Positions 13,684-43,295 of a stretch of 64,000 nt of DNA are shown here, one piece after another. The stretch is from Aureispira sp. CCB-E. Its GTDB lineage: Bacteria > Bacteroidota > Bacteroidia > Chitinophagales > Saprospiraceae. Position 1 is the first letter of the stretch. Each line of letters begins with the position of its first letter. The DNA is taken from NCBI RefSeq assembly GCF_031326345.1, contig NZ_CP133671.1, positions 1,674,001 through 1,738,000 of the forward strand, in the 5' to 3' direction. Below the pieces are notes generated by a model that made no database searches, was not told the DNA's origin, and saw nothing but the letters and a program-made list of their open reading frames with translations. Both the position numbers and the translations under genes were made by a program.

Positions 13684-13878
13684 ATTATATTTACAATCAT
13701 CTTAAAAGATACTAAATCTAAGTTTATAGACCTGTTTTGTAATCTATACTAATTTGTTTTGAAAGTTCTATGAAGCGATGGTTGTCAGAGAAAAATTACT
13801 TTCCTTTATTGTATATGAAAGGTATAATGTTTATACTTTGAAGTATATATTTACCTAGCACTTGAGTTTGTGTAAAAG

Positions 13879-14088
13879 ATGTTTTTAATAAAATTGCCTG
13901 CCTATAAAGATATATTGCAGATTGAAAATGAGCTAATGCTTGTATTCGATTCTAAAATACAAGAGGCTATCTTTCTGTCAGAAGATTATTTGGATTTCAC
14001 TAAGGAAAAGACTAGTTTTACCTATACTGATGGCAATGACTTGTATAAAAAATCAGGTGCTGTTGTGTCTCGAAAAATTGCTAATTGA
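13879..14088 (+). CDS. Hypothetical small protein or gene remnant
   Basis: An ATG-started frame of 69 residues with ordinary amino-acid composition (acidic, about half hydrophobic) lies 115 bp upstream of gmd. I recognise no family. It sits in a 1.1-kb gap otherwise filled by a decayed repeat, so it could be the tail of a lost glycan gene. The region around it shows no clear ribosome-binding site. Treat as doubtful. Confidence 0.25.
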   Translation: MFLIKLPAYKDILQIENELMLVFDSKIQEAIFLSEDYLDFTKEKTSFTYTDGNDLYKKSGAVVSRKIAN

Positions 14089-19160: not shown

Positions 19161-19202
19161 GTAAGGATGGAAGGAAGTAATCTTTGAATTATATAATACA
19201 AT

Positions 19203-19345
19203 AGTTCGTTGAAACCACGAAGTAGCAGCAAACCGAGCTGTGCGAGCTCACGACCGAAGGGAGTAACAAAGCTAAACTACCACGTAGTAGCACCGCAAGT
19301 AACTAAGCTTGCGACCTCATGACCGCAGGGAATAATCAACGAACT
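19203..19345. repeat. Dispersed intergenic repeat, copy B
   Basis: The ends AGTTCGTTGA (19203-19212) and TCAACGAACT (19336-19345) are perfect inverted repeats identical to copy A. Inside are two related sub-units, each made of CCACG(A/T)AGTAGCA, a small stem, then CTCA(C/T)GACCG(A/C)AGGGA. The 59 bases at 19215-19273 are nearly the exact reverse complement of 23333-23391. It splits the nonulosonate operon between the aminotransferase and the CMP-sugar synthetase. Confidence 0.75.
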
Positions 19346-19503
19346 ACTAATATTAGGTAATAGTAGTTAGCCGTGTTGCTACTGGGGCGTGTCTTATTTA
19401 CTTCATTAACTTTATTTCATGAGATCATTATGGCTTAGTTAAAATTGTGTTGATACGGTATAGTATAAAAAAGTATAATAGATGTCATTAAAAAAAATTG
19501 ACA

Positions 19504-20232
19504 ATGAATAATATGAATGTATTAATAACAATCTGTGCTAGAGGAGGGTCAAAAGGATTGCCAGGCAAGAATGTTAAAGAAATTGCAGGGAAACCACTGA
19601 TTGCTTATTCTATCGCAACAGCAAATAAGTTTGCTAAAAGTTATGGGGGAAAAGTTATCATAACACTAAGTACAGATAGCAAAGAAATACGAACAATAGC
19701 TTCTGAGCATGGTTTGGTAACTGATTATATTCGACCTGCTGCATTGGCAACAGATAAAATTAGTAAAACGCCTGCGTTAAAAGATATATTAAAATATGAA
19801 GAAGAAAGAAATCAAATAAAGTTTGACTTGCTTATAGATTTTGATATCACTTCTCCAATGAGAACAATAGAAGATATAGAGACAGCCATTAAAATTATTG
19901 AAAATGATCGTAATGCAGTAAATCTAGTAACCGTAAATACTGCCCATCGAAACCCTTATTTTAATATGTTGGAAGAAAAGGAAGATGGTTATTTTGGCGT
20001 ATCCAAAAAAACTGCTACTCCTTTTTACTCTCGTCAAGGTGCTCCCATCGTATATGACATGAACTCGTCTTTTTATATCTTTAAACGGCATTATTTTGAG
20101 AATAATTATAATGGATCTTTGACAGATAGAACATTGGTATACAAAATGCCACATGCTTGTTTTGATGTCGATAGTTTAGATGATTTTGAATACATGGAAT
20201 ACTTGATTACTACAGGCAAATGGGAGTTCTAA
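19504..20232 (+). CDS. CMP-nonulosonate cytidylyltransferase (NeuA/LegF-like)
   Basis: 242 residues from the ATG at 19504; a TTG two codons earlier is also open. The nucleotidyltransferase signature ARGGSKGLPGKN lies at 12-23, followed by 'GKPLIAYSI', 'LSTDSKEIRTIA', 'DFDITSPMRT' and 'YDMNSSFYIFKR', as in CMP-N-acetylneuraminate synthetases. It activates the nine-carbon sugar with CTP. This is the required partner of the NeuB-type synthase upstream. Its stop shares one base with the next start. Confidence 0.88.
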   Translation: MNNMNVLITICARGGSKGLPGKNVKEIAGKPLIAYSIATANKFAKSYGGKVIITLSTDSKEIRTIASEHGLVTDYIRPAALATDKISKTPALKDILKYEEERNQIKFDLLIDFDITSPMRTIEDIETAIKIIENDRNAVNLVTVNTAHRNPYFNMLEEKEDGYFGVSKKTATPFYSRQGAPIVYDMNSSFYIFKRHYFENNYNGSLTDRTLVYKMPHACFDVDSLDDFEYMEYLITTGKWEF

Positions 20233-21155
20233 TGAAGGTTGTGATAATTGGTTTAGGGAGTATTGGGAAAAAACATGTTGATGCTCTGATGCAAATAGAG
20301 GAGCATAACTTTGATATATATGCACTTCGAAGTTCCATGAACAAAACAAAAACGTATAAAAATGTTAACAACATTTACTCTTTAGAAGTACTACCTTTTG
20401 AGCCTGATTTTTTTATTATCTCTAATCCTACATTTCTTCATTTTCAAACGTTGCAAACATTAATTTTATTTGAAAAGCCTTTGTTAATTGAGAAACCTGC
20501 TGTTATGCTTTTGAAAGAAGCAGCTATTATTGAACCTATTCTTAGGAAAAAAAATATTTTAAATTATGTAGGGTGCAATCTTAGGTTTTTGGAAGTTTTG
20601 ACCTTTTCAAAAGATTTTCTTAGAAAGAAAAACTTGAGAATTAATGAAGTCAATATCTATGCAGGGTCTTATTTGCCGAGTTGGCGTCCCAGCCAAAACT
20701 TTAGAGAGGTTTATAGTGCCAATGCAAAAATGGGGGGAGGAATTCATCTTGATTTTATCCATGAAATTGATTATTTATATTGGTTTTTTGGTAAGCCTAA
20801 AATGCAACATAGTATTTTGAGGAATAATTCCTCCCTTGAAATCTCAGCAATAGATTATGCTAATTATAGCTATGTATATAATGAATTTGTGGCTTCTGTT
20901 GTCCTGAATTACTATCGAAAAGATAGAAAACGTACTTTTGAAATCGTTGCAGAAGAAGGGACGCTTCTAATTGAAGTCGAGAAGGGAAAGGTTTTTTTTA
21001 AACAAGAATTGATTTTTCAAACAGATCAATCTATATTGGATACTTATTTTAAACAAATGCGATACTTTGTAAATTGTATTAAAAGTAATGAAAAAACGAT
21101 GAATACTTTTTCCGAAGCATTCGAAGTTTTACAAATGTGTTTAGATGATGAATAA
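20232..21155 (+). CDS. Gfo/Idh/MocA-family sugar oxidoreductase
   Basis: 307 residues from the ATG that overlaps the preceding TAA by one base; another ATG 12 bp earlier is less likely. The Rossmann motif VIIGLGSIGKKH lies at the N-terminus. 'IEKPAV' holds the conserved E-K-P lysine, and 'GGIHLDFIHEIDYLYWFFG' carries the Asp/His pair expected at the active site. Such enzymes oxidise or reduce hydroxyl groups of sugars with NAD(P). Equivalent genes sit in many nonulosonate clusters, where they may modify the activated sugar. The exact substrate is unknown. Confidence 0.85.
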   Translation: MKVVIIGLGSIGKKHVDALMQIEEHNFDIYALRSSMNKTKTYKNVNNIYSLEVLPFEPDFFIISNPTFLHFQTLQTLILFEKPLLIEKPAVMLLKEAAIIEPILRKKNILNYVGCNLRFLEVLTFSKDFLRKKNLRINEVNIYAGSYLPSWRPSQNFREVYSANAKMGGGIHLDFIHEIDYLYWFFGKPKMQHSILRNNSSLEISAIDYANYSYVYNEFVASVVLNYYRKDRKRTFEIVAEEGTLLIEVEKGKVFFKQELIFQTDQSILDTYFKQMRYFVNCIKSNEKTMNTFSEAFEVLQMCLDDE

Positions 21156-21891
21156 ATTAGAAGGAAAGATAATTTTGGTAACTGGAGGAAGTGGATTGTT
21201 AGGGAAAGCAATGTTAAAGCACATTGTAGAAAATGGAGGAATAGCAATAAACGGTGATGTATCGGCAACAGATGATATTCAAAATGGGGTGTTGTCACTT
21301 GATGTAACAAATTTTGCATCTATCAAAAAATGTGTTGATACAATAATAGATTATTATGGAAGAATTGATGGTTTAGTTAACAATGCTTACCCTAGAACAA
21401 AAGATTGGAGCAATAAATTTGAAGATGTTACAATAGAGAGCTGGCGTAAAAATGTAGACATTCAGTTAAATAGTGTTTTTGAAATTACTCAGTTGGTCTT
21501 ATCTAAAATGGTGACACAAAAAAATAAAGGGGCTATTGTTAATATTGCATCTATTTATGGAGTTTTAGGAAATGATTTTACTGTTTATGAAGGAACTAAT
21601 TTAACATCTCCTGCTGCATATGCAGCCATTAAAGGAGGAATTGTTAATTTTACTAAATACCTTGCGTCTTATTATGGACCTCAACAGATTCGAGTAAATT
21701 GTGTTTCTCCAGGAGGAATATTTAATCATCAACCTACTACGTTTGTTGAGAATTATGAAAAAAAAGTCCCTTTGCAAAGAATGGGGATGCCTGAGGATAT
21801 TGCACCAGCAGTTTCTTTTCTATTGTCAGAAGAAGCCAAATATATAACAGGACACAATATTATGGTTGACGGTGGCTGGTCTATCATTTAA
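21145..21891 (+). CDS. Short-chain dehydrogenase/reductase (PtmA-like)
   Basis: 248 residues, overlapping the preceding gene by 11 bp; ATG-ATG gives two possible starts. It has the cofactor motif VTGGSGLLGKA, 'NNAYPR' in place of NNAG, catalytic Ser in NIASIYG, and Tyr-x-x-x-Lys in YAAIKGG. The C-terminus 'ITGHNIMVDGGWSI' is typical. It resembles PtmA-type reductases of flagellin-glycosylation loci. Together with the Gfo/Idh gene it probably carries out a redox step on the nonulosonic acid or its CMP form, which is an inference from neighbourhood. Confidence 0.87.
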   Translation: MMNKLEGKIILVTGGSGLLGKAMLKHIVENGGIAINGDVSATDDIQNGVLSLDVTNFASIKKCVDTIIDYYGRIDGLVNNAYPRTKDWSNKFEDVTIESWRKNVDIQLNSVFEITQLVLSKMVTQKNKGAIVNIASIYGVLGNDFTVYEGTNLTSPAAYAAIKGGIVNFTKYLASYYGPQQIRVNCVSPGGIFNHQPTTFVENYEKKVPLQRMGMPEDIAPAVSFLLSEEAKYITGHNIMVDGGWSII

Positions 21892-21902
21892 GTTGTATAA
21901 AA

Positions 21903-23222
21903 ATGAACAATAGAAAGAAGTCTATTTCTAAAATAAAAATATCCCCCAAAATTGAGGTCTATATTTCAATCTTGAAGTTTGGCTTTAGTGGTTTATTAGA
22001 AGCAACTACACCAAATGTTCGAGCCATTTTTACAGCTAAAACAATTTGGAAGAAATGGATAAATATTATAGGTCGTTTTTTTTTACTTCCAATAAAAGAA
22101 ATTTATTATCGTTTTAAGTATTCAAAACAAATATCTTATACTAAAATAATAGGGAAACCATGTTTGCTTATTACTAGTGAAAACAATAGGAACACATTAA
22201 ATTTTATAAAACAGCAAGAAAAAGAGGCTGTTTATTTAGCTAGTGAGGGGTATGTGTCTAGCAAAGACGATATTGTTGTATTATTGCACAGGGTTATATG
22301 GTTTAGAATATATTTATATCCTTGGATGCTTTGGCATTTTTATAAATATTATGGCAAGCAAGCGTTGAGTTATATGGATTATGTTTTTAAGGGAGTGGGG
22401 CAGTATGAGGCTTGTTTACAATTTTTAGAAAAGTATAAACCTAGATATATTGTTTGGGCAAATGATCACAGTATTTTTCCTCGGGCACTTCTTATGGCCG
22501 CTAAGACATTAGAAATACCAACTATTTACATTCAACATGCGAGTGTTACACCCTATTTCCCTCCTTTGGACTTTGATTTAAGTTTATTAGAAGGGCAAGC
22601 AACATTAGACCAATATCAATCGAATGGGCGGGTTAATGGCTTGGTGAAATTTGTTGGGATGCCAAAATTTGATTCCTATATCAATTGCCGTAATACTAAG
22701 ATTCGTGTACAAAACATAGGTGTTTGTTCCAATAAAATGGATGAGCAAGTAGTCGTAGAAACTTTTTTGAGAGAGCTTAGCAATACTTTTCCTACTATCA
22801 CAATTACATTTAGACCGCATCCTGCTGATGATACAAGCTTTAATATACCTAACAAAGTTTTAAGATCTACGAAAGAAGAAAATGCATTTGACTTTCTAAA
22901 AAAACAAGATTTGATTATAGCAGGAAATACGTCCATTCATTTAGAAGCCGTACTGTTAAACGTTGTTAGTATTTATTATGAGTTTATCCCTTTTGAGGAG
23001 GATATACGAGATATGTATCGTTATTGCAAAAATGGATTGGCTAGTCATGCCTTAGATTATGAACACCTTTTGGAACTAATAAAAAAAGAAATAGAAGCCA
23101 AAGATACGGAGGTCTACAAAAAAGCGGCTTATTATAACGCTGTTTTAGGAACGGAAAATGAAGGAAAAAGCGGTGCATTGGCAATTCAGTATATTAATGA
23201 GTTCATGCAAGGCAGGAGTTAA
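21903..23222 (+). CDS. Putative GT-B glycosyltransferase of surface glycan
   Basis: 439 residues, no signal peptide, basic N-terminus. The second half shows a GT-B pattern: 'PTIYIQHASVTPYFPP', 'FRPHPADD', and 'LIIAGNTSIHLEAVLLN'. This resembles polysialyltransferase- and CDP-glycerol-transferase-like capsule enzymes, in which the R-P-H-P motif contacts the nucleotide. Being last in the operon behind a CMP-sugar synthetase, it is the natural candidate to transfer the CMP-nonulosonate to an acceptor. The exact family remains uncertain. It starts 11 bp after the SDR stop. Confidence 0.68.
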   Translation: MNNRKKSISKIKISPKIEVYISILKFGFSGLLEATTPNVRAIFTAKTIWKKWINIIGRFFLLPIKEIYYRFKYSKQISYTKIIGKPCLLITSENNRNTLNFIKQQEKEAVYLASEGYVSSKDDIVVLLHRVIWFRIYLYPWMLWHFYKYYGKQALSYMDYVFKGVGQYEACLQFLEKYKPRYIVWANDHSIFPRALLMAAKTLEIPTIYIQHASVTPYFPPLDFDLSLLEGQATLDQYQSNGRVNGLVKFVGMPKFDSYINCRNTKIRVQNIGVCSNKMDEQVVVETFLRELSNTFPTITITFRPHPADDTSFNIPNKVLRSTKEENAFDFLKKQDLIIAGNTSIHLEAVLLNVVSIYYEFIPFEEDIRDMYRYCKNGLASHALDYEHLLELIKKEIEAKDTEVYKKAAYYNAVLGTENEGKSGALAIQYINEFMQGRS

Positions 23223-26964: not shown

Positions 26965-26975
26965 CTTTGAAATAG

Positions 26976-27047
26976 TTGCAGAGGTAGGACTCGAACCTAC
27001 GACCTACGGGTTATGAGCCCGCCGAGCTACCGCTGCTCCACTCTGCG
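26976..27047 (-). tRNA. tRNA-fMet (initiator, anticodon CAT), copy 1
   Basis: The 72-nt cloverleaf folds fully: 7-bp acceptor stem, D arm GAGC/GCTC, anticodon loop CTCATAA with anticodon CAT, and T arm GTAGG/CCTAC with TTCGAGT. Two features mark it as the initiator rather than elongator tRNA-Met: the mismatched first acceptor pair (C1 opposite A72), and three consecutive G:C pairs (GGG/CCC) below the anticodon loop. The 3' CCA is not encoded. Confidence 0.95.
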
Positions 27048-27170: not shown

Positions 27171-27182
27171 ACTTTAAAATAG

Positions 27183-27254
27183 TTGCAGAGGTAGGACTCG
27201 AACCTACGACCTACGGGTTATGAGCCCGCCGAGCTACCGCTGCTCCACTCTGCG
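27183..27254 (-). tRNA. tRNA-fMet (initiator, anticodon CAT), copy 2
   Basis: The sequence is identical over all 72 nt to the copy at 26976-27047, including the C1:A72 mismatch, the three G:C pairs next to the anticodon loop and the CAT anticodon. It has its own promoter and terminator, so both copies should be functional. Confidence 0.95.
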
Positions 27255-32821: not shown

Positions 32822-33310
32822 GTGAGTTTGTTCCGAAATTATAAAGAGTATAAAAGTATATTTTTTCAAAATGATGTTACAGAGTTATCCAAAGAACATC
32901 AGAAAAAAAGATTTGTTAGAGCCTATTTTGATGCATCTTTGGATACAAAGGTGACAGAAAGTTGGTCGAATGGAAAGGTGATAAAAGTATTTTATCATGA
33001 AATTAACCATATAAAACAGGTTCATTCTTTTCATAAAGCACATTATGCGACCTTACCTTTTAGTTTGTTTCAAATCAAAAATAGCCATACATTTTTTGTG
33101 GAAAATTATAAAAATTTTGAATTTCAATCCTTAGAAATTTTTAGATTTGATGCGTTTGGTCGAGAAATAGAAGCCTTGCTTTTTCTTAAAGATTTTAGTT
33201 TGTCTCAATACAATGAGTCTATTTATGAAAATGATGACGATGAATTGCCTGTAAAGGAAAAAACATTTTATCCAAAACTTTGGCAAATAGAGGAAGAGGA
33301 TATGGACTAA
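32822..33310 (+). CDS. Uncharacterised 162-aa acidic-tailed protein
   Basis: Starts with GTG. The protein is rich in Phe, Tyr and His and ends in an acidic tail 'NESIYENDDDELPVKEK' followed by 'FYPKLW'. It is clearly paralogous to the broken gene at 33698-34169: 'LSQYNESIYENDDDELPVKE' is shared exactly, and the DNA there is almost identical. Lying behind the DUF4157 pair and duplicated nearby, it behaves like an immunity-gene family, but no family is recognised. Confidence 0.6.
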   Translation: MSLFRNYKEYKSIFFQNDVTELSKEHQKKRFVRAYFDASLDTKVTESWSNGKVIKVFYHEINHIKQVHSFHKAHYATLPFSLFQIKNSHTFFVENYKNFEFQSLEIFRFDAFGREIEALLFLKDFSLSQYNESIYENDDDELPVKEKTFYPKLWQIEEEDMD

Positions 33311-33354
33311 CCAATAATTTTTAATAGTTGGTTATGATGATGCAACTTATAAAT

Positions 33355-33690
33355 ATAATACTCCGTTGATTATTATTCGCTACGCTCATGAGAGCGCAAG
33401 GCTAGTTCCCTCTGGTCATGAGCTTGGGCTTTTGTGCTACTAGCACAAGCCTACTCGGCAAGCTTAGTTTTTTAGTTTTTCCACGAACCCGCAGGCTTAT
33501 GAAAGAAAAACGTAAAAAATCATCTTGCATTAGTTTATTACATGAGCGCTTTGCTTTTAGTTAGCTTCGCTGCTACTTCGTGGTACCGTGTGAGGGCTTA
33601 GTTGTTGATTATTAATTTGGGTATAGGAAATCAATAAAGATGTATATTGTTGGCAATTAAATTGATATGACTTTTTAACGGAGTGATGTA
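33355..33690. repeat. Dispersed intergenic repeat, copy D
   Basis: It shares with copy C (23245-23420) the AATATAATACTC start, TTTTTAGTTTTTC-ACGAACCCG, CATCTTGCATTAGTTTA, GCTGCTACT-CGTGGTACC and GTGTGAGGGCTT, in the same order and orientation. The left part adds a palindromic segment around GGGCTTTTGTGCTACTAGCACAAGCCTAC (33427-33455). It lies between two paralogous genes. Confidence 0.65.
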
Positions 33691-33697
33691 AATAGCT

Positions 33698-34169
33698 ATG
33701 AAAGAATATGAGTTTCCTTTTTTTCAAAAGAAAGAGGATGTTTTACCAGTAGGGCATCAAAAAGATTTTTTTGTAAGAAAATTTTTTAATGAAGCATTAA
33801 ATTTAAGCTTGTCGGAACGTGTCTGTGCTGGAGTAGTGACAGAGGTGTATTATCACGAATGTAAGGACATAAAAAAAGTACGAGACTTTCACGAAGAAAA
33901 TTATAAGATTCAAAAACTAGTACTTCTGCAAGAAAAAATCGACAGGCGTTTTTTTCTTGGAATCTTATGTTTCTTTTGAGTTAGAATCGTTTCAAATTCT
34001 CAAATTTAATAGGACTCAACAAGAAGTAGTATCACTTTTATTTGATAAAAACTATCAATTGTCTCAATACAATGAGTCTATTTATGAAAATGATGACGAT
34101 GAATTGCCCGTAAAGGAAAAGTTATTCTACCCTAATATCTGGAAAATTCATCAAGAGGATATGGACTAA
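33698..34169 (+). pseudogene. Frameshifted paralogue of the 162-aa protein
   Basis: The first part (33698 onward, ATG) and the second part (to the stop at 34169) are in different frames, yet together align along the full length of the 162-residue neighbour. The shift lies in an A6 run at 33933-33938. Removing one A restores 'LLQEKSTGVFFLESY', which matches 'LFQIKNSHTFFVENY' of the paralogue without gaps, and the repaired protein would have 156 residues. The tail NESIYENDDDELPVKEK is intact and the DNA near it almost unchanged, so the break is recent, a phase-variable site, or a sequencing error in a homopolymer. Confidence 0.75.
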
Positions 34170-36948: not shown

Positions 36949-36968
36949 TTACTTTCCGATACAGAAAG
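36949..36968. other. Distal attachment-site repeat of the mnmE element
   Basis: TTACTTTCCGATACAGAAAG at this place is identical over 20 bp to the last 20 bp of mnmE at 41874-41893. It has arms CTTTC and GAAAG around the 7-bp centre CGATACA, the usual geometry of a tyrosine-recombinase core site. It lies in non-coding DNA behind the LRR gene, where no function for a piece of mnmE is expected. Confidence 0.8.
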
Positions 36969-37067
36969 TGATTTTTGTTGATTATTAAATGTTTATGATT
37001 AATGAGGTACAAATAAGATACAAAAATGATCTAAAAGCTTAAAAAGCGTTGTCTATAAAGGACAAAA

Positions 37068-37331
37068 CTACTTAGGTTTATAAGAATTTTTGTTTGGATG
37101 ATTTAAATATTCTTTAATTGTAAATTCAATCTCCTTATTTGTTCCTATATTAATAACGGTTACTTTTTTCTCTTCTAAATCTTTTTGTAAGACTAAAAAT
37201 GCAAGCTCTTTAATTTCTTCAATTCCTTTTACAAGTCTATTAATTTTCCAGTACCACATAACGAGTTCTCTCATAATTAGCATAAAGACAAAAGTTATAA
37301 CTAGAGCCAATACAAGGTGTAAGATTTCCAT
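37068..37331 (-). CDS. Small single-span membrane protein
   Basis: 87 residues with one N-terminal transmembrane helix (about 4-26) and a charged cytosolic tail containing 'GIEEIKELAFLVLQKDLEEKK'. There is no recognised family. It is the first gene inside the left attachment repeat, transcribed towards it, and has no operon partner. Confidence 0.5.
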   Translation of the reverse strand: MEILHLVLALVITFVFMLIMRELVMWYWKINRLVKGIEEIKELAFLVLQKDLEEKKVTVINIGTNKEIEFTIKEYLNHPNKNSYKPK

Positions 37332-37505
37332 AATTTTAGTTTTAGTATGAAATTAATATTTTTTGAAATTTAATATTATTGATGAATATACATAAAACTT
37401 TGTTTAATATTCTTGGAAAAGAACTTTTAAAATGCATTCTATCGCCTAAAAATCGTATTTTGTGTATAGAGGTACATTGCCTCTAAAGTAGGGAAAAGTA
37501 GAGGA

Positions 37506-37757
37506 ATGAACGAGACTAAAGGACAATTCCAAAAAGGAAAAACAAAAACAGGCGGACGCACAAAAGGAACGCCCAACAAAGTAAACGGACTGCTCAAAGA
37601 AAAACTAAGCAACTACATTGAGGAAAACTTTGAAACGATCTTAGAGGACGTACAAGCGTCAAGGCGTTCAGACCGTATCAAGTTTTATTTAAAGATAATG
37701 GAATACGTTTTACCCAAGGCGAAACCAACCGAACCCACAACAGAAGCCCCCCTCTAA
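37506..37757 (+). CDS. DUF5681-like small basic protein
   Basis: 83 residues. The N-terminal 'FQKGKTKTGGRTKGTPNKV' is the pattern of DUF5681-type proteins common in phages and integrated elements, followed by a helical segment ending in a Pro/Thr tail. Its role is unknown; the basic N-terminus would suit DNA binding. It starts at ATG 27 bp ahead of the next gene's start region, probably in one operon. Confidence 0.6.
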   Translation: MNETKGQFQKGKTKTGGRTKGTPNKVNGLLKEKLSNYIEENFETILEDVQASRRSDRIKFYLKIMEYVLPKAKPTEPTTEAPL

Positions 37758-37784
37758 AACACAAACCTTAAATCAGTACATTTA

Positions 37785-38396
37785 ATGGGTAGAATAGGCA
37801 ATTTTGCACCCTCTTACGAAGGTTGCCACACATTAGATATAAGAATGCTAAATCCCTCTAAAAGCTTTGCTCTAAACAAGAATTTAAGCGCAACTTTAGA
37901 AGTATCTAAATATTGGGAACTAACAGATAATCTAATTTTTCTTAAATACAAGGCAGAAACCCACATTTTAGAGCTGTGCTTCTTTAGAGAAGGGAAACGT
38001 TACGATCAAAAAATAGGCATCACAAGATTAAAAACGAATCTAAAGAATGGATATAGATATTATTTTGTTTGTGGGCATACGGGGAAACGTTGTACTAAAT
38101 TAATACGCCCTTTTGGGAACGCACACTTTGTACATCGTACAGCATTTAAAAACCTCTACTACGAAAAGCAGAAGGAATCAAAACTGTACAGGGCTATCAG
38201 TAATAGTTCCTTTGGTATAAGTTGCCGCTTGGATAACCTACGAAACGAATTATACTATAATCGTCCTAAGTATCAAAAGACGCATTACAGAGGCAAACCC
38301 ACACCCAAATATCAAAAGTTAAAGAAGTTAGAAGAGAAGTATTATAATGCGAATAATGATGCTATTAGGCATTTGAAAGGGTTTAGAATAACCTAA
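37785..38396 (+). CDS. Zinc-ribbon-like mobile-element protein
   Basis: 203 residues, very basic at the C-terminus. The centre 'YYFVCGHTGKRCTKLIRPFG' followed by 'FVHRTAFKNLYYEKQKESK' resembles the degenerate zinc-ribbon family of uncharacterised proteins often found near integrated elements ('CGxxGxRC...Y...SQ' plan). Only two cysteines of a normal four remain visible in the ribbon. The stop codon lies inside the first copy of the island's direct repeat (38387-38409), so the 3' end may have been set by recombination. Confidence 0.55.
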   Translation: MGRIGNFAPSYEGCHTLDIRMLNPSKSFALNKNLSATLEVSKYWELTDNLIFLKYKAETHILELCFFREGKRYDQKIGITRLKTNLKNGYRYYFVCGHTGKRCTKLIRPFGNAHFVHRTAFKNLYYEKQKESKLYRAISNSSFGISCRLDNLRNELYYNRPKYQKTHYRGKPTPKYQKLKKLEEKYYNANNDAIRHLKGFRIT

Positions 38397-38409
38397 ATCT
38401 TTAGAGAAA
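38387..38409 (+). repeat. Island direct repeat, copy 1
   Basis: The 23-bp sequence starting AATAACCTAAATC and ending TTTAGAGAAA is identical to 39634-39656 and nearly identical to 41632-41658. It covers the last codons and stop of the zinc-ribbon-like gene. Confidence 0.85.
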
Positions 38410-38414
38410 ATAAG

Positions 38415-38527
38415 AACGTGTTAGAAAAATGCAGTTTTCTTAACACGTTTATTTCTCATGTTAGAAAAATCACTTTTTTCTAACACGTTATTGTTTCATG
38501 TTAGAAAAGGAGTGTTTTTTTAACATG
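38415..38527. terminator. Array of three consecutive hairpins between convergent genes
   Basis: Three inverted repeats follow one another: 38415-38449 (AACGTGTTA..TAACACGTT), 38457-38488 (CATGTTAG..CTAACACG) and 38497-38527 (CATGTTA..TAACATG). Each has an inner A-run opposite a T-run. They lie between the plus-strand zinc-ribbon-like gene and the minus-strand fic gene, so bidirectional termination is the simple reading. Three related copies in a row is unusual for a terminator. Confidence 0.55.
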
Positions 38528-38528
38528 A

Positions 38529-39599
38529 CTATTGAGTAAACAAAGCAAATAGCTCTTTATTGATATAATAATTACTTTTTCCATGCTTTATTTTTTCCAT
38601 TAGACCAATATCAACAAGTGCATCTAAATAGATAGCTGCTGTTTGCCTGACTTTGTCAATGTCTTGTTGCAAAAACTCAATCTTAGTGTAAGGATGCTTA
38701 AACAAGTTCTCTAATAAGTCCTTACTATAAATTTTAGGCAGTTTGGTTCTAATTTCTTGCTTGAATTTCAACATTAAAGCACTAATAGACTTAATAATTT
38801 GAATAGATTCTAAAGCAGTTTCTTCAACGCCTTTTAGAATGTACAAAATCCATTCCTCCCAATTATCATTGTCTCTAACATCTTGCAATAGCTCGTAGTA
38901 TTTAGCCTTATTTTGTATGATAAAGCGACTTAAATACAAAATAGGATTATCCAATAAGCCTTTTAAGCACAGGTATAAGATATTGATAATACGCCCCGTT
39001 CTACCATTGCCATCATAAAAAGGATGGATACTTTCAAATTGAAAATGAATGATTGCCATTTTTACCAAATGATCTAAATCATCTAAAGAATCATCGTTGA
39101 TATACTGTTCTAAATTTTCCATTAAACGTTCAATTTCTTGAATGTCTTGTGGTGGCGTATAAACAACGTTTCCTTCTCCATCTTTTAGGGTTGTACCTGC
39201 TTGAGTTCTGAACCCTGCTGCATTGCCTTCTAGTTCTTCTTGGATAGAAAGAATATAACGATTAATCAATAAGTCATTACTACGTACTAAATTGAATCCT
39301 TGACGCAAAGCACTTGCATAGTTCATTACTTCTTTGGTGTTCAAATTCTTTACCTTTTCCTCTAAAACATCCGCTTTGAATAGTTCATCGTGTGTGGTAA
39401 CAATGTTTTCAATAGCTGAACTTTCTTTTGCTTCTGTTAAGATCAAGGTATTCACTAAGATACTTTCATTAGGAATTGTTCTAGCAACTCCTTTGAGTTC
39501 GGCTAATGCTTTGTTGGCTTTAATCGCCTGTTTTAGAATTGCCTTTGTTTCTAAGTCAGAGGATAATGGTAAGGATTGTATTTTGTAATTTGGGTTCAT
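38529..39599 (-). CDS. Fic-domain protein (AMPylase-type) with winged-helix C-terminus
   Basis: 356 residues. The Fic core motif HPFYDGNGRTGR begins at His192 and is intact. An N-terminal inhibitory motif SSAIEN (residues 60-65, S/T-x-x-x-E-G/N) marks a class II, self-inhibited Fic protein. The C-terminal part (about 300-356) looks like a winged helix ('TAAIYLDALVDIGLMEKIKHG'), giving a DNA-binding function typical of chromosomal and island Fic genes. Such enzymes transfer AMP to target proteins. The gene lies alone between direct-repeat copies 1 and 2, with the repeat 35 bp before its start. Confidence 0.92.
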   Translation of the reverse strand: MNPNYKIQSLPLSSDLETKAILKQAIKANKALAELKGVARTIPNESILVNTLILTEAKESSAIENIVTTHDELFKADVLEEKVKNLNTKEVMNYASALRQGFNLVRSNDLLINRYILSIQEELEGNAAGFRTQAGTTLKDGEGNVVYTPPQDIQEIERLMENLEQYINDDSLDDLDHLVKMAIIHFQFESIHPFYDGNGRTGRIINILYLCLKGLLDNPILYLSRFIIQNKAKYYELLQDVRDNDNWEEWILYILKGVEETALESIQIIKSISALMLKFKQEIRTKLPKIYSKDLLENLFKHPYTKIEFLQQDIDKVRQTAAIYLDALVDIGLMEKIKHGKSNYYINKELFALFTQ

Positions 39600-39633
39600 T
39601 GCTTGGATTGCTTATTGATCCTATTCATTCAAA

Positions 39634-39656
39634 AATAACCTAAATCTTTAGAGAAA
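39634..39656 (+). repeat. Island direct repeat, copy 2
   Basis: An exact 23-bp match to copy 1 (38387-38409). It lies between the start of fic and the end of the DUF4276 gene. Confidence 0.85.
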
Positions 39657-39719
39657 TAGGCTATTTGAGGTTTCTTTTCATTATGTATTTTTGAACTGTT
39701 GCATTTTTTGCAATAGTTA

Positions 39720-40400
39720 CTATTCTTTGTCTTCTATCACTCGCTCCACTAATGTTTCTATCCATGCCTTAAATCGTGGACATTTTTCTAACATTTTGTT
39801 GATACCTACATCCTCTGCAATTAAATTTCCTTCTGTTACTTTATCGTATGTATCACCATATTCATTAAGAATACGAATCAATCTCTTAGATGGAGAAGTA
39901 TCTGGGTTATTATTTATTTCTTCTGGATTAGGATATGATTCAATGATTGCTTGTGTTTTAGTATAGATTTTTTTTTCGTAAAGCTCTTCAAATCCACAAT
40001 TGTCAGAAAAAAGTAAGGCTTCAAATTCATGTTTTTGAATGTAGGGTATAAATTTATTACTCTTTATATCTTTTGAAAATCCATCCTCTAGTATTGATAT
40101 TTTTTTATCAATATTTGATTCTTTGAGCATCTTCTGATATTCAGGGACAGAATTTGGTAATCTAAAAAAATCTAAAAATGTTGTAACAATTACATTAGTA
40201 TTACCTCCCCTAATGATTCTCTGAATGTCATCTTTTAGCTGTTTATACTTACCAAAACCACCTTTGTTTCCTGTACTTGTTTGGAGACAAAATGCTTCTA
40301 TTTGATAAAATTGGTAGTGCTCGGCAAAATAAGGGCGTACTAATTTATCTATAAATTCTAATTCGCTATACCCTTCAACAATAAATACTAATCTTTTCAT
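39720..40400 (-). CDS. DUF4276 (TOPRIM-like) protein
   Basis: 226 residues from the ATG whose last bases overlap the TGA of the ATPase gene (ATGA), which fixes the start over an upstream GTG. The N-terminus 'RLVFIVEGYSELEF' has Glu9-Gly10, the TOPRIM-type catalytic Glu, and later 'VTTFLDFFRLP' and 'QKHEFEALLFSD' fit the DUF4276 family. DUF4276 genes are usually next to AAA ATPases, in a layout like the ATPase/TOPRIM pairs of the PARIS (AriA/AriB) and split-OLD defence systems. It would be the nuclease or effector subunit. Confidence 0.85.
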   Translation of the reverse strand: MKRLVFIVEGYSELEFIDKLVRPYFAEHYQFYQIEAFCLQTSTGNKGGFGKYKQLKDDIQRIIRGGNTNVIVTTFLDFFRLPNSVPEYQKMLKESNIDKKISILEDGFSKDIKSNKFIPYIQKHEFEALLFSDNCGFEELYEKKIYTKTQAIIESYPNPEEINNNPDTSPSKRLIRILNEYGDTYDKVTEGNLIAEDVGINKMLEKCPRFKAWIETLVERVIEDKE

Positions 40401-41479
40401 GGTTGCCCCCCTATAACACTTTTTGTCCACAAATCACCTAAAGAATAATCCTCTAACCAATTCTTTAAATCTTGACTATCTAGTCGTTTAAAAACAGACT
40501 GTCCATCTGCTCTATCTACCGTTATTACGCTTTCAGGTTCAAAGTTACTAACTAAGTTAACAGATTGAGTTGATAAGATAATTTGACTTTTGACAGAAGC
40601 TTTTTTGATTAAACCTGCGAGTTTGTTAATGGCAAAAGGATGCAAGCCAAGTTCAGGTTCATCTATGATGATAGTACTAGGAGGTTCTGGTTGTAATAGC
40701 AAGGTTGCTAAAGCTATGAAACGTATTGTTCCATCTGATAAGTTTTGGGCATTTAGGTACATATCTGAACCTTTTTCTTCCCAAACTAACTCTATCATAT
40801 CAGGGCTAAGTTCATCAGGTTCTAATGAAAAACCTTTAAAAAAAGGAGCTATAGATTGTACAGTACGAGTAATGAATTTAAAACTCTTAGGGTGTTTTTC
40901 TTGTAATAAGTATAAAAAAGCGGCAAGATTTGAACCATCTTCTTTCAATAATCTATTATCTTTCAAATTACAGGGAGTGCGTAATGCTGCTGTACGACTT
41001 GTGTCATGGAAATGATATATTTTGAAACTTCTAAAATGGTCACGTAAATACTTATCTCTATAGGAGGTACTATTTGTTAATACATGACTATTGTATTCTA
41101 AATCCCAATAGTTATAGTAACTTATATTTGAGTACTTAGAACCATAGCCACTATCTTCCTTATTTATAATTAAGTTGGAGGCTTGATTAGGAATTAATTC
41201 AAAAGCATAACTGTTAATGTTATTAAATTGTTTGAAATAAATTTCCCCTTTTAAATGATCTGAAACTTTACGTCCAAAATGCAAAAAACTATCCGCTTTG
41301 CCATGAGTTGCAATATATTTTTGGAGTTCATCTTTATACAAAACATTAAGCAACTTAAAAAAACCTATAAAATTAGTCTTACCTACACCATTAGCACCTA
41401 TTAAAACATTGATAGGTTTTAATGTGAGATCTAATTCTCTTATAGATTTGAAGTTATTGATTTCGATGCTATCTATCAT
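40397..41479 (-). CDS. SMC/OLD-like AAA ATPase
   Basis: 360 residues. 'IEINNFKSIRELDLTL' opens the ABC-type ATPase fold, and Walker A GANGVGKT ends at Lys34-Thr35. The signature region 'NLSDGTIRFIALATLLL' and Walker B 'TIIIDEPELGLHP' follow, then the D/H-loop region 'IILSTQSVNLV'. It belongs to the AAA_15/AAA_21 group used in many anti-phage systems. It overlaps the DUF4276 gene by 4 bp, so the two subunits are made together. It probably senses a phage cue and controls the TOPRIM partner, which is an inference. Confidence 0.9.
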   Translation of the reverse strand: MIDSIEINNFKSIRELDLTLKPINVLIGANGVGKTNFIGFFKLLNVLYKDELQKYIATHGKADSFLHFGRKVSDHLKGEIYFKQFNNINSYAFELIPNQASNLIINKEDSGYGSKYSNISYYNYWDLEYNSHVLTNSTSYRDKYLRDHFRSFKIYHFHDTSRTAALRTPCNLKDNRLLKEDGSNLAAFLYLLQEKHPKSFKFITRTVQSIAPFFKGFSLEPDELSPDMIELVWEEKGSDMYLNAQNLSDGTIRFIALATLLLQPEPPSTIIIDEPELGLHPFAINKLAGLIKKASVKSQIILSTQSVNLVSNFEPESVITVDRADGQSVFKRLDSQDLKNWLEDYSLGDLWTKSVIGGQP

Positions 41480-41631
41480 TAATTGAGTGCTTTTAAAACT
41501 TCTACTTTGGGAAATTATAAACGAAACTTATCTAGGGCTTTACCTTTACGCAATATTTTACTTAAAGTTGCAAAGCTTACAAGTTGTACTCTTAGTACAA
41601 AATTTATAATCTTTTTGTTTTATGAGAAGAA

Positions 41632-41658
41632 AATAACCTAAATCCTTAGAAGAAATAA
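41632..41658 (+). repeat. Island direct repeat, copy 3
   Basis: Matches copies 1 and 2 with one T-to-C change and a one-base insertion (AATAACCTAAATCC then TTAGAAGAAATAAG). It lies 153 bp upstream of the ATPase gene. The remainder of the 394-bp gap up to mnmE shows nothing else recognisable. Confidence 0.75.
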
Positions 41659-41873
41659 GCTTAAATCACAAAATACAATAATATTCCAATTATAAAAACA
41701 AGCCAATCAATTGAAACGACAAAAAGGAAAAAGCAAGGCTCAAATATGAACCTGTTTTTCTACTATATTACAAGTTAGAAAAGTGCTATCTGATGATTAA
41801 GTGAACAACTGCGTTATGTCTTAGATAATAGAATAACTTTATTCACGCCAGATTTGACTTTATTTTGCAGCAA

Positions 41874-41893
41874 TTACTTTCCGATACAGAAAG
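41874..41893. other. mnmE-proximal attachment-site repeat
   Basis: TTACTTTCCGATACAGAAAG includes the TAA stop and the final Phe-Cys-Ile-Gly-Lys codons of mnmE. It is identical to 36949-36968. The element therefore leaves the mnmE reading frame intact, as expected for integration at a gene 3' end. Confidence 0.8.
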
Positions 41894-43295
41894 AAGAAAA
41901 AATATTCCCCAACAAATCATCCGTAGAGATTTCGCCAGTAATTTCACCCAAGTAATTTAAAGCGTGGCGAATGTCCATGGCTAAAAAATCGTTAGAAATG
42001 CCAATTTCCAATCCTTCCAAAACAGCATCCAAAGACTGTAGAGCAGATTGAAGCGCTTCGTAGTGGCGAGAATTAGAGACAATGCTACTATCCTGTTGCA
42101 ATTGCCCAGAAGCGACCAAGTCAAAAAGCAATTGTTTGAGCTGATCAATTTGCGTTTTGTCCTTGGCAGAAAGCGATAGAGTAGTGTATGGCGTCGTCAA
42201 ATTTTGTGTAACTTTTTCTAGAGTATCGTTCTCTTCAAGAGAGGATGGAGCTTGATTTTGAGAATGCAAATCTGCTTTGTTGGCAACAACAATGATATTC
42301 ATATCCGCTGTCGCCAATTTTTGAAGATCAGCTTGTGCCTCTAAAGGGCTTAATGTCGTTTGGTCGTAGACGTAAATTAGAATGGCAGATTTGGCAACCT
42401 GTTCCAACGTTTTTTCGACCCCAATAGCCTCTATTTGGTCGGTTGCTTCTCGAATGCCTGCGGTATCAATTAAGCGATATTGAACCCCTTGAATATTGAG
42501 TATTTCTTCGATGGTATCCCTTGTTGTTCCCGCAATGTCAGAAACAATGGCTCGTTCTTCATTGAGCAGAGCGTTTAGAAGCGTTGATTTTCCTGCATTG
42601 GGGCGACCAGCCAATACCGTATGGACGCCATGTTTGATGGCATTGCCCAATTGAAAGGAATCTAAAAGGCGCTTGATAATCCGAACAATTTGTTGAACGA
42701 GTTCTTGCAGTTTTTCTCTATTGGCAAATTCTACATCTTCCTCACCAAAATCCAATTCTAGTTCTATCATGGAGGCAAAATGAATTAATTCGCTTCGGAG
42801 CTCCTTAATTTGATCCGAAAAACCTCCCCGCATTTGAGACAAAGCCAATTGGTGTGCTGATTCAGATTCGGCAGCAATTAAATCAGCCACAGCTTCAGCT
42901 TGAGACAAGTCCATTTGACCATTCAAAAAAGCACGCAATGTAAATTCCCCTTCTCTAGCCATTCTAGCACCTTTGCGAATAAACAGTTCAATCAGTTGTT
43001 GCTGAATATAACGAGAACCATGACAAGAAACCTCTATAACATCCTCCTTTGTGTAAGAATGTGGGTTTTTAAAAACAGAAACTAAAGCTTGATCAATGAT
43101 TTTATTTTGTTCATCGCGAATATATCCCAAATGAATCGTGTGAGAATCAACTTGTTGTAAGTCTTTAGCTTGAAAGACTTCATTGGTAATTGAGATAGCT
43201 TGGTTGCCAGAAAGGCGGACAATTCCAATAGCGCCACTACCAGCAGGAGTAGCTAAGGCAACTATAGTGTCTTGGAGATCAATGAAGTTGTACAA
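41874..43295 (-). CDS. mnmE: tRNA modification GTPase MnmE
   Basis: 473 residues, usual length. The N-terminal folate-binding domain opens with DTIVALATPAGSGAIG. The G domain carries G1 GRPNAGKS (230-237), 'DIAGTTRD', G3 DTAG (277-280) and G4 NKAD. The C-terminus is the obligatory FCIGK. With MnmG it makes the 5-carboxymethylaminomethyl modification of wobble uridine in tRNA. The start appears to be TTG, since no ATG fits the conserved N-terminus. The 3' end is duplicated at 36949 as an attachment site. Confidence 0.95.
   Translation of the reverse strand: MYNFIDLQDTIVALATPAGSGAIGIVRLSGNQAISITNEVFQAKDLQQVDSHTIHLGYIRDEQNKIIDQALVSVFKNPHSYTKEDVIEVSCHGSRYIQQQLIELFIRKGARMAREGEFTLRAFLNGQMDLSQAEAVADLIAAESESAHQLALSQMRGGFSDQIKELRSELIHFASMIELELDFGEEDVEFANREKLQELVQQIVRIIKRLLDSFQLGNAIKHGVHTVLAGRPNAGKSTLLNALLNEERAIVSDIAGTTRDTIEEILNIQGVQYRLIDTAGIREATDQIEAIGVEKTLEQVAKSAILIYVYDQTTLSPLEAQADLQKLATADMNIIVVANKADLHSQNQAPSSLEENDTLEKVTQNLTTPYTTLSLSAKDKTQIDQLKQLLFDLVASGQLQQDSSIVSNSRHYEALQSALQSLDAVLEGLEIGISNDFLAMDIRHALNYLGEITGEISTDDLLGNIFSSFCIGK

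Follow-up and report, generated by a model that had tools for sequence, protein, structure and literature searches.

An integrase-less 4.9-kb island at the mnmE 3′ end of Aureispira sp. CCB-E that may be mobilised by a subclade of Bacteroidota tyrosine integrases

Introduction

According to the account in PMC5704250, cis-mobilizable elements (CIMEs) keep both attachment sites, attL and attR, but have lost their integration and transfer genes, and they have been found in tandem with elements that do carry an integrase and share their site. The ssrA islands of Dehalococcoides, as presented in PMC3146451, likewise form tandem arrays at a single housekeeping locus, where the repeat is 20 bp long; of these islands, 15 have no integration module and were suggested to be cis-mobilizable. 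Here we describe a 4925-bp island at the 3′ end of mnmE, the gene of a tRNA modification GTPase, in Aureispira sp. CCB-E. It lies in a 64-kb window (the whole stretch of DNA analysed; contig NZ_CP133671.1, positions 1,674,001 to 1,738,000), and all island positions below are numbered within this window. Our comparisons suggest that it is probably a CIME-like island moved in trans by an integrase of a subclade that uses TTGTACC arm-type sites.

The same target is occupied elsewhere. Elements related to Salmonella genomic island 1 (SGI1) are described in PMC9035990 as integrated at the trmE/mnmE 3′ end of gammaproteobacteria, with 18-bp att sites, int and xis genes and backbones of 16.5-30.7 kb, and PMC8409611 describes their mobilisation by IncA and IncC plasmids. 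None of the matches listed from the open-licence PMC literature reports integration at mnmE in a Bacteroidota genome.

Results

The island is bounded by a 20-bp direct repeat, TTACTTTCCGATACAGAAAG, identical at 36949-36968 and 41874-41893, in agreement with an initial annotation made from the window sequence. Even with up to three mismatches allowed, the 7.39-Mb window genome (G000) contains no third copy, and a reversed control gives no match at all; the search for further copies that the annotation had proposed thus ends with these two. The right-hand, mnmE-side core (minus strand) is the final 20 bp of mnmE, encoding CIGK and the stop codon, and mnmE itself (41874..43295, minus strand) is left intact as the target gene. 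The distal core (36949..36968, minus strand), which reads CTTTCTGTATCGGAAAGTAA in mnmE orientation, has the layout ACTTTC-CGATACA-GAAAGT (ACTTTC-N7-GAAAGT), within which the predicted 5-7-5 arrangement CTTTC-CGATACA-GAAAG is present. The island has a GC content of 0.312, lower than that of its 20-kb flanks (0.346 and 0.357).

A search for an empty site in close relatives had been proposed as a check, and one is present in G144, a genome labelled as the same species, which supports a site-specific island. At its mnmE locus (L149), the alignments of window sequence ending at 36968 and starting at 41874 have a single 20-bp copy in common (L149 16782-16801), and blastn finds no island sequence there. 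The 4925-bp insertion at the mnmE 3′ end is precise. The single G144 core differs from that of the window at one synonymous position; we tried this A/G difference as a crossover marker and dropped it, as the window's base also occurs in a further genome of the genus, G003.

G003 carries an island at the same place, next to mnmE. It encodes a 203-residue protein that is 85% identical in amino acids to a protein of the window island, for which we coin the name p203, and the remaining cargo is different (PADLOC PDC-M66A/B, a RadC protein and PDC-M62A/B). Relatives accordingly do not have the 4.9 kb in common as core DNA; such sharing was one of the results that, according to the annotation, would speak against an island. 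The distal arm motif described below is the same in both islands and stands 55 bp from a decayed core in G003. Identity at fourfold-degenerate sites between G000 and G003 is 40/50 for p203, far above the 71/157 of mnmE (Fisher p=1.7e-5) and the 36-44% of five further neighbours, and for this reason we conclude that p203 moved between species after their chromosomes had diverged. It is a conserved backbone gene, and cargo varies among related islands. Relatives of any degree were found in 16 of 298 family genomes, and distant ones lie in elements of G075 and G953. A pattern scan of GTDB contigs and IMG/VR confirmed no close relative; in G144 none was found either, only a 37% relative elsewhere in that genome.

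These identities also bear on whether homologous recombination or natural transformation spread the island by way of the flanking DNA at mnmE, leaving the att sites as relics. The flanks are unevenly similar to G144, with 97.3-97.6% identity over most of the left side (97.3% up to 36968) and 99.5-99.6% on the right (99.5% from 41874), as such exchange might leave them. However, fourfold identity between G000 and G003 is just 36-45% across mnmE and the five neighbours, which means that p203 moved without a long stretch of flanking DNA, and the geometry of arm and core is kept across genomes. We regard spread through the flanks as quite improbable.

The use of the mnmE 3′ site in Bacteroidota, which the annotation had proposed, extends well beyond this genus. 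We sought second cores near mnmE with a degenerate CIGK-stop pattern in overlapping samples of 398 family and 396 order genomes; the intervals found are a minimum, and exclude G046, where 0.2 kb without cargo separates the cores. Six genomes have an integrase directly downstream of mnmE (G023, G598, G640, G634, G554 and G543), G279 has one behind a cut mnmE, and G095 has one beside a core at a contig end. Alignment of eight mnmE-site integrases, including one that lies in an inner G634 unit, gave profile A4, in which the R, H-x-x-R, H and Y positions, which we take to be catalytic, are invariant. The G023 enzyme comprises Arm-DNA-bind_5 (PF17293), Phage_int_SAM_5 (PF13102) and Phage_integrase (PF00589) domains. 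For a wider view, we took from named genomes the best 80 of at least 573 confirmed relatives of mnmE-adjacent integrases, a choice that favours mnmE linkage: 75 of the 80 loci have an mnmE C-terminus upstream on the same strand, at 39-195 bp (n=13), 563-630 bp (n=61) or 2472 bp (n=1) from the integrase start. The other five, which show no mnmE C-terminus, comprise two that are cut by a contig start (L202 and L217) and three that are not (L251, L253 and L254). This linkage indicates a clade of Bacteroidota tyrosine integrases that, by its genomic position, inserts at the mnmE 3′ end.

The annotation's suggestion of a recombinase related to that of SGI1 found no support: the one mnmE-site integrase scanned, that of G023, has PF17293, PF13102 and PF00589 domains, and the mnmE-site integrases form a clade of their own against eight integrases of the window genome, in a comparison that included no SGI1 integrase. 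An origin of the island from an SGI1-family element or a direct relative would account for the shared target, the trmE/mnmE 3′ end given in PMC9035990. Yet no gene of SGI1 type was seen, the island has no int gene, its six scanned open reading frames (ORFs) include no mobile-backbone Pfam family, and the cognate Bacteroidota integrases stand apart in the tree. We therefore set this origin aside as extremely unlikely on gene content, domains and the tree; a deep kinship of the integrases may exist.

The island carries a feature that ties it to a particular part of the integrase clade. A paired arm-type motif, TGTATCTTATTTGTACC (37006..37022, minus strand), is offset by 56 bp from the distal core, the same spacing as the paired TTGTACC arm motif of the subclade elements, which stands 54-56 bp from their core. 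The arm pair on its own is not very specific in the window genome, with one match without mismatch and 11 with up to two mismatches, compared with eight for the reversed control. We combined the arm pair, 20-50 bases of any kind and the core into one pattern (permitted length 48-78 bp). Among 395 class genomes, 9 carry this composite pattern, with 10 matches between them; among 396 order genomes there are 13 matches, spread over 10 genomes. The reversed pattern has none. Pooled over these partly overlapping samples there are 22 distinct matches in 18 genomes, including the window island (G000:C1:1710956-1711022); all are 65-67 bp long, though they are not all independent (three are in G634, two in G005 and two in G873). 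The composite pattern occurs once in IMG/VR, on a contig that carries a clade-like integrase gene as well.

Of the 11 rows labelled with TTGTACC in a 46-integrase tree, 10 fall in one clade (support 99/95), and the eight integrases of the window genome that the tree includes form a clade separate from those of the mnmE site. The clustering of the TTGTACC rows and the equal spacing of the island's arm together point to one subclade of integrases as the putative helper. In the sample of 80 loci this subclade is minor, since two TTGTACC motifs precede the integrase in one locus only (L270); at least two copies of TTGTTGC do so in 54.

Units with the same kind of end and no integrase are found in other genomes. 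Of the 22 composite matches, 13 (in 11 genomes) have mnmE in view on the arm side, and the nine others, in seven genomes (G873 twice, G857, G819, G665, where the contig ends after 17 kb, G019, G005 twice and G119), reach a contig end before it. Seven of the 13 units contain a clade integrase (G742, G953, G598, G467, two in G634 and a partial one in G1020), and six do not: the window island and units in G1018 (2.6 kb), G449 (6.0 kb), G565 (1.3 kb), G566 (1.2 kb) and G634 (1.6 kb). Some of these consist of no more than one or two genes and stand in tandem. In G634 (L159-L163), three units of 46.6, 1.6 and 19.8 kb lie in tandem 3′ of mnmE; the middle one has an integrase-bearing unit on either side, its end resembles those of the two at 84% and 76%, and a Pfam scan of its two genes gave no family. 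Further arm-bearing units in which no integrase was seen are present in G003, G075 (13.4 kb) and G005. The last of these shows three arm-and-core ends on two contigs (L170 9342-10618, L171 438), with genes that have a common Lcl_C C-terminal domain, and is probably a tandem array of such units at mnmE. In G029 (L041 9188-9388, 17936-17953), a second mnmE tail comprises 66 codons, and its island seems to have brought a replacement mnmE 3′ end rather than the core alone.

The cargo of these units often consists of genes of defence or toxin-antitoxin type. Fic-domain proteins are encoded in units of G000, G565, G566, G449 and G442, type I restriction genes in G047 and G075, AbiE in G047, an AbiLi-like protein in G075 and a type IIG enzyme in G029; G1018 carries HigB with a helix-turn-helix protein, and G442 carries mobile mystery proteins A/B. 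Other cargo has no such link, namely genes that we named by eye as propionate-cycle-like (G557) and SusCD-like (G642), the Lcl_C proteins of G005 and secreted proteins in the 6-kb unit of G449.

Several observations weigh against mobilisation in trans, and the first concerns the proximal end of the island. In six elements that carry an integrase, a further arm pair follows the proximal core at 139-148 bp; in G598, G742 and G467, and likewise in the first G634 unit, the distal arm pair is accompanied by a second pair 139-141 bp past that core. At the corresponding place the window island has only a possible decayed arm, TTTGAGCCTTGCTTTTTCC (41726..41744, minus strand; offset 147 bp), a weak 13/19 match that is nonetheless the best in the 700 bp from the core. 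Twelve of the 14 rows without integrase have no arm of at least 15/19 in 700 bp, and the proximal arms seen in such units score 16/19 at 140 bp (G449, 6-kb unit) and 15/19 at 115 bp (G1018). Given its weak proximal arm, the island may be a poor integrase substrate. Secondly, a search with profile A4 of nine genomes of the genus, several of them fragmented drafts, found no clade-level helper (best scores 106.6 bits in G000, 102 in G144 and 104.2 in G003). Among seven other genomes, G449 alone has a clade-level match (303.6 bits, a truncated 254-residue member), and G642, G557 and G566 reach 138-149 bits. In addition, recombination by host enzymes between the 20-bp repeats would also give a precise empty site, and the distal core of the G003 sister island is decayed. 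The arm label is not clean either, as L252 has a single TTGTACC outside the clade, and the label of L161 and of L333 comes from the distal end alone, the proximal repeats of L161 being of the TTGTTGC type. Finally, integrase-less mnmE intervals without clear TTGTACC arms exist in G029, G047, G442, G557 and G642, and G449 has mnmE on two contigs, the second with a clade integrase, and may be a mixed bin.

The degenerate proximal arm, the lack of a helper in the nine genomes and the decayed G003 core are also what one would see in an immobile remnant, that is, an autonomous mnmE element that lost its integrase and proximal arms to deletion and kept its cargo, with G144 losing the island through recombination between the 20-bp repeats. 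This is the chief rival explanation, with the proximal arm as the main doubt about mobility in trans, but we judge it unlikely. Both window cores are intact and identical, integrase-less units stand in tandem with integrase-bearing ones and have similar ends, and p203 moved between species after chromosome divergence, though this was perhaps before the integrase was lost.

The gene content of the island conforms to the initial description of Fic, AAA ATPase, DUF4276 and small proteins, the first three of which are recovered by Pfam and PADLOC, and of an element without its own integrase. The integrase profile has no match among island ORFs of at least 100 residues, and a Pfam scan of the six island ORFs gave no integration, transfer or other mobile-backbone family. 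From the distal end, an 87-residue ORF without Pfam family (37068..37331, minus strand) is followed by an 83-residue small protein (37506..37757, plus strand) with a weak match to a phage family of unknown function (phrog_8771, E=1.6e-6) and by p203 (37785..38396, plus strand), which belongs to no Pfam, PADLOC or NCBIfam family and whose single-sequence AlphaFold model is poor (mean predicted local distance difference test score 42.1). Three 40-bp repeats forming AT-rich hairpins (38419..38538) lie between the convergent p203 and Fic genes, and G003 has similar hairpins. The Fic protein (38529..39599, minus strand; 356 residues) has Pfam Fic_N, Fic and SoFic-like_C domains and matches PADLOC SoFic (E=1.6e-117); because its score with the NCBIfam SoFic model (NF046030) is 383.8 bits, below the 550 cut-off, ‘SoFic-like’ is the safe name. 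Adjacent genes encode a DUF4276 protein, PADLOC HEC-01B (39720..40430, minus strand; E=3.3e-72), and an AAA_21 ATPase, HEC-01A (40397..41479, minus strand; E=4.8e-143), both candidate defence proteins, and PADLOC calls both HEC-01 and SoFic by its profile rules. The Fic and HEC-01AB cargo likely serves in phage defence, judging from these family matches.

A short repeat also connects the cargo genes. Its first copy, AATAACCTAAATCTTTAGA, is located at the p203 stop codon (38387..38405), the second upstream of the oppositely oriented Fic gene (39634..39652) and the third upstream of the HEC-01A gene (41632..41650), all on the plus strand. The consensus AATAACCTAAATC(C/T)TTAGA has three copies in the 64 kb, all within the island, and three or more copies arose in 0 of 100 shuffles; the G003 island has one copy with one mismatch and one with three. 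The distance from repeat to gene start is 35 bp for Fic, 153 bp for HEC-01A and 31 bp for PDC-M66A of G003. The same 19-bp element stands on the opposite strand, 3-34 bp upstream of 8 of 22 p203-like genes (up to four mismatches; L054, L104, L107, L108, L109, L112, L117 and L316), where ~0.03 would be expected from other loci (P=6e-18, with some dependence among the loci). The 14 genes without it include p203 of the window and that of G003. The element could be an operator, and in the window branch these sites may serve to regulate the cargo, either by p203 or by the regulator of p203.

Elsewhere the window and G144 differ in further places. An immunity-like gene family, named by eye, is present in tandem copies (32822-33310, 33698-33979 and 33957-34169) downstream of the gene for a 1204-residue protein, and this array is collapsed by ~0.6-0.9 kb in G144 (window 33311-33933, L149 ~13766-13999). 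A second strain-specific difference spans 19200-21977 (~2.8 kb), which corresponds to 0.8 kb in G144 (L149 1888-2704). The window also has two tandem tRNA-Met genes (26975-27047 and 27182-27254).

Discussion

The initial annotation held that the island would need a helper in trans, and this expectation stands, as the island has no integrase and none of clade level was found in the window genome. In the mechanism that we favour, the island keeps what would be the attachment core and distal arm of the TTGTACC-arm integrase subclade, and a visiting autonomous element of this subclade would supply the integrase. The enzyme would pair the arm-and-core end with the core in mnmE, and the island could then be inserted or excised, presumably through a circular intermediate, leaving mnmE unharmed. 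Since no helper is resident, a mobile island implies that its helper has since left the genome or would have to enter it again.

More broadly, the mnmE 3′ end might act as the landing place for a cassette system of Bacteroidota, in which integrase-less units of one to a few genes, each with its arm-and-core string of ~66 bp, are added, stacked and removed by a visiting tyrosine integrase. We put this forward tentatively, as a possibility we rather doubt. If true, such a system would mirror integron arrays, with a tyrosine integrase as its enzyme and with Fic, toxin-antitoxin and restriction genes as frequent cargo. Mobilisation in trans, for its part, would account for the arrival and departure of defence genes that have no integrase of their own at a fixed Bacteroidota chromosomal site. 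It names the class of helper, integrases with TTGTACC arms, and so becomes directly testable, and the ~66-bp string provides a search tag for units that integrase searches miss.

Integron cassettes and CALINs (clusters of attC sites lacking integron integrases) are integrase-less units of one to a few genes that each end in a recombination site and accumulate at one place. Unlike them, the mnmE units appear to use the core and arm sites of an Arm-DNA-bind_5 integrase and not attC hairpins, and unlike in an integron, the integrase resides on separate mobile elements and not on a fixed platform. Integration at the trmE/mnmE 3′ end is shared with the SGI1 family, whereas the island has no int/xis module; nor does it encode the integration module of an integrative and mobilizable element. 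In its presumed working, the island is closest to CIMEs and the Dehalococcoides ssrA islands. The latter, as portrayed in PMC3146451, depend on a CcrB-related serine recombinase and carry reductive dehalogenase cargo, whereas the mnmE system appears to depend on a tyrosine integrase with arm sites. Like a CIME, the island has the 20-bp core at both ends, a TTGTACC arm pair at subclade spacing distally, with the proximal arm degenerate, and no integration or transfer families in the scanned ORFs. It differs in its phylum and target, in belonging with small defence and toxin-antitoxin units, in having no adjacent helper in the window genome and in an arm that matches a defined integrase subclade.

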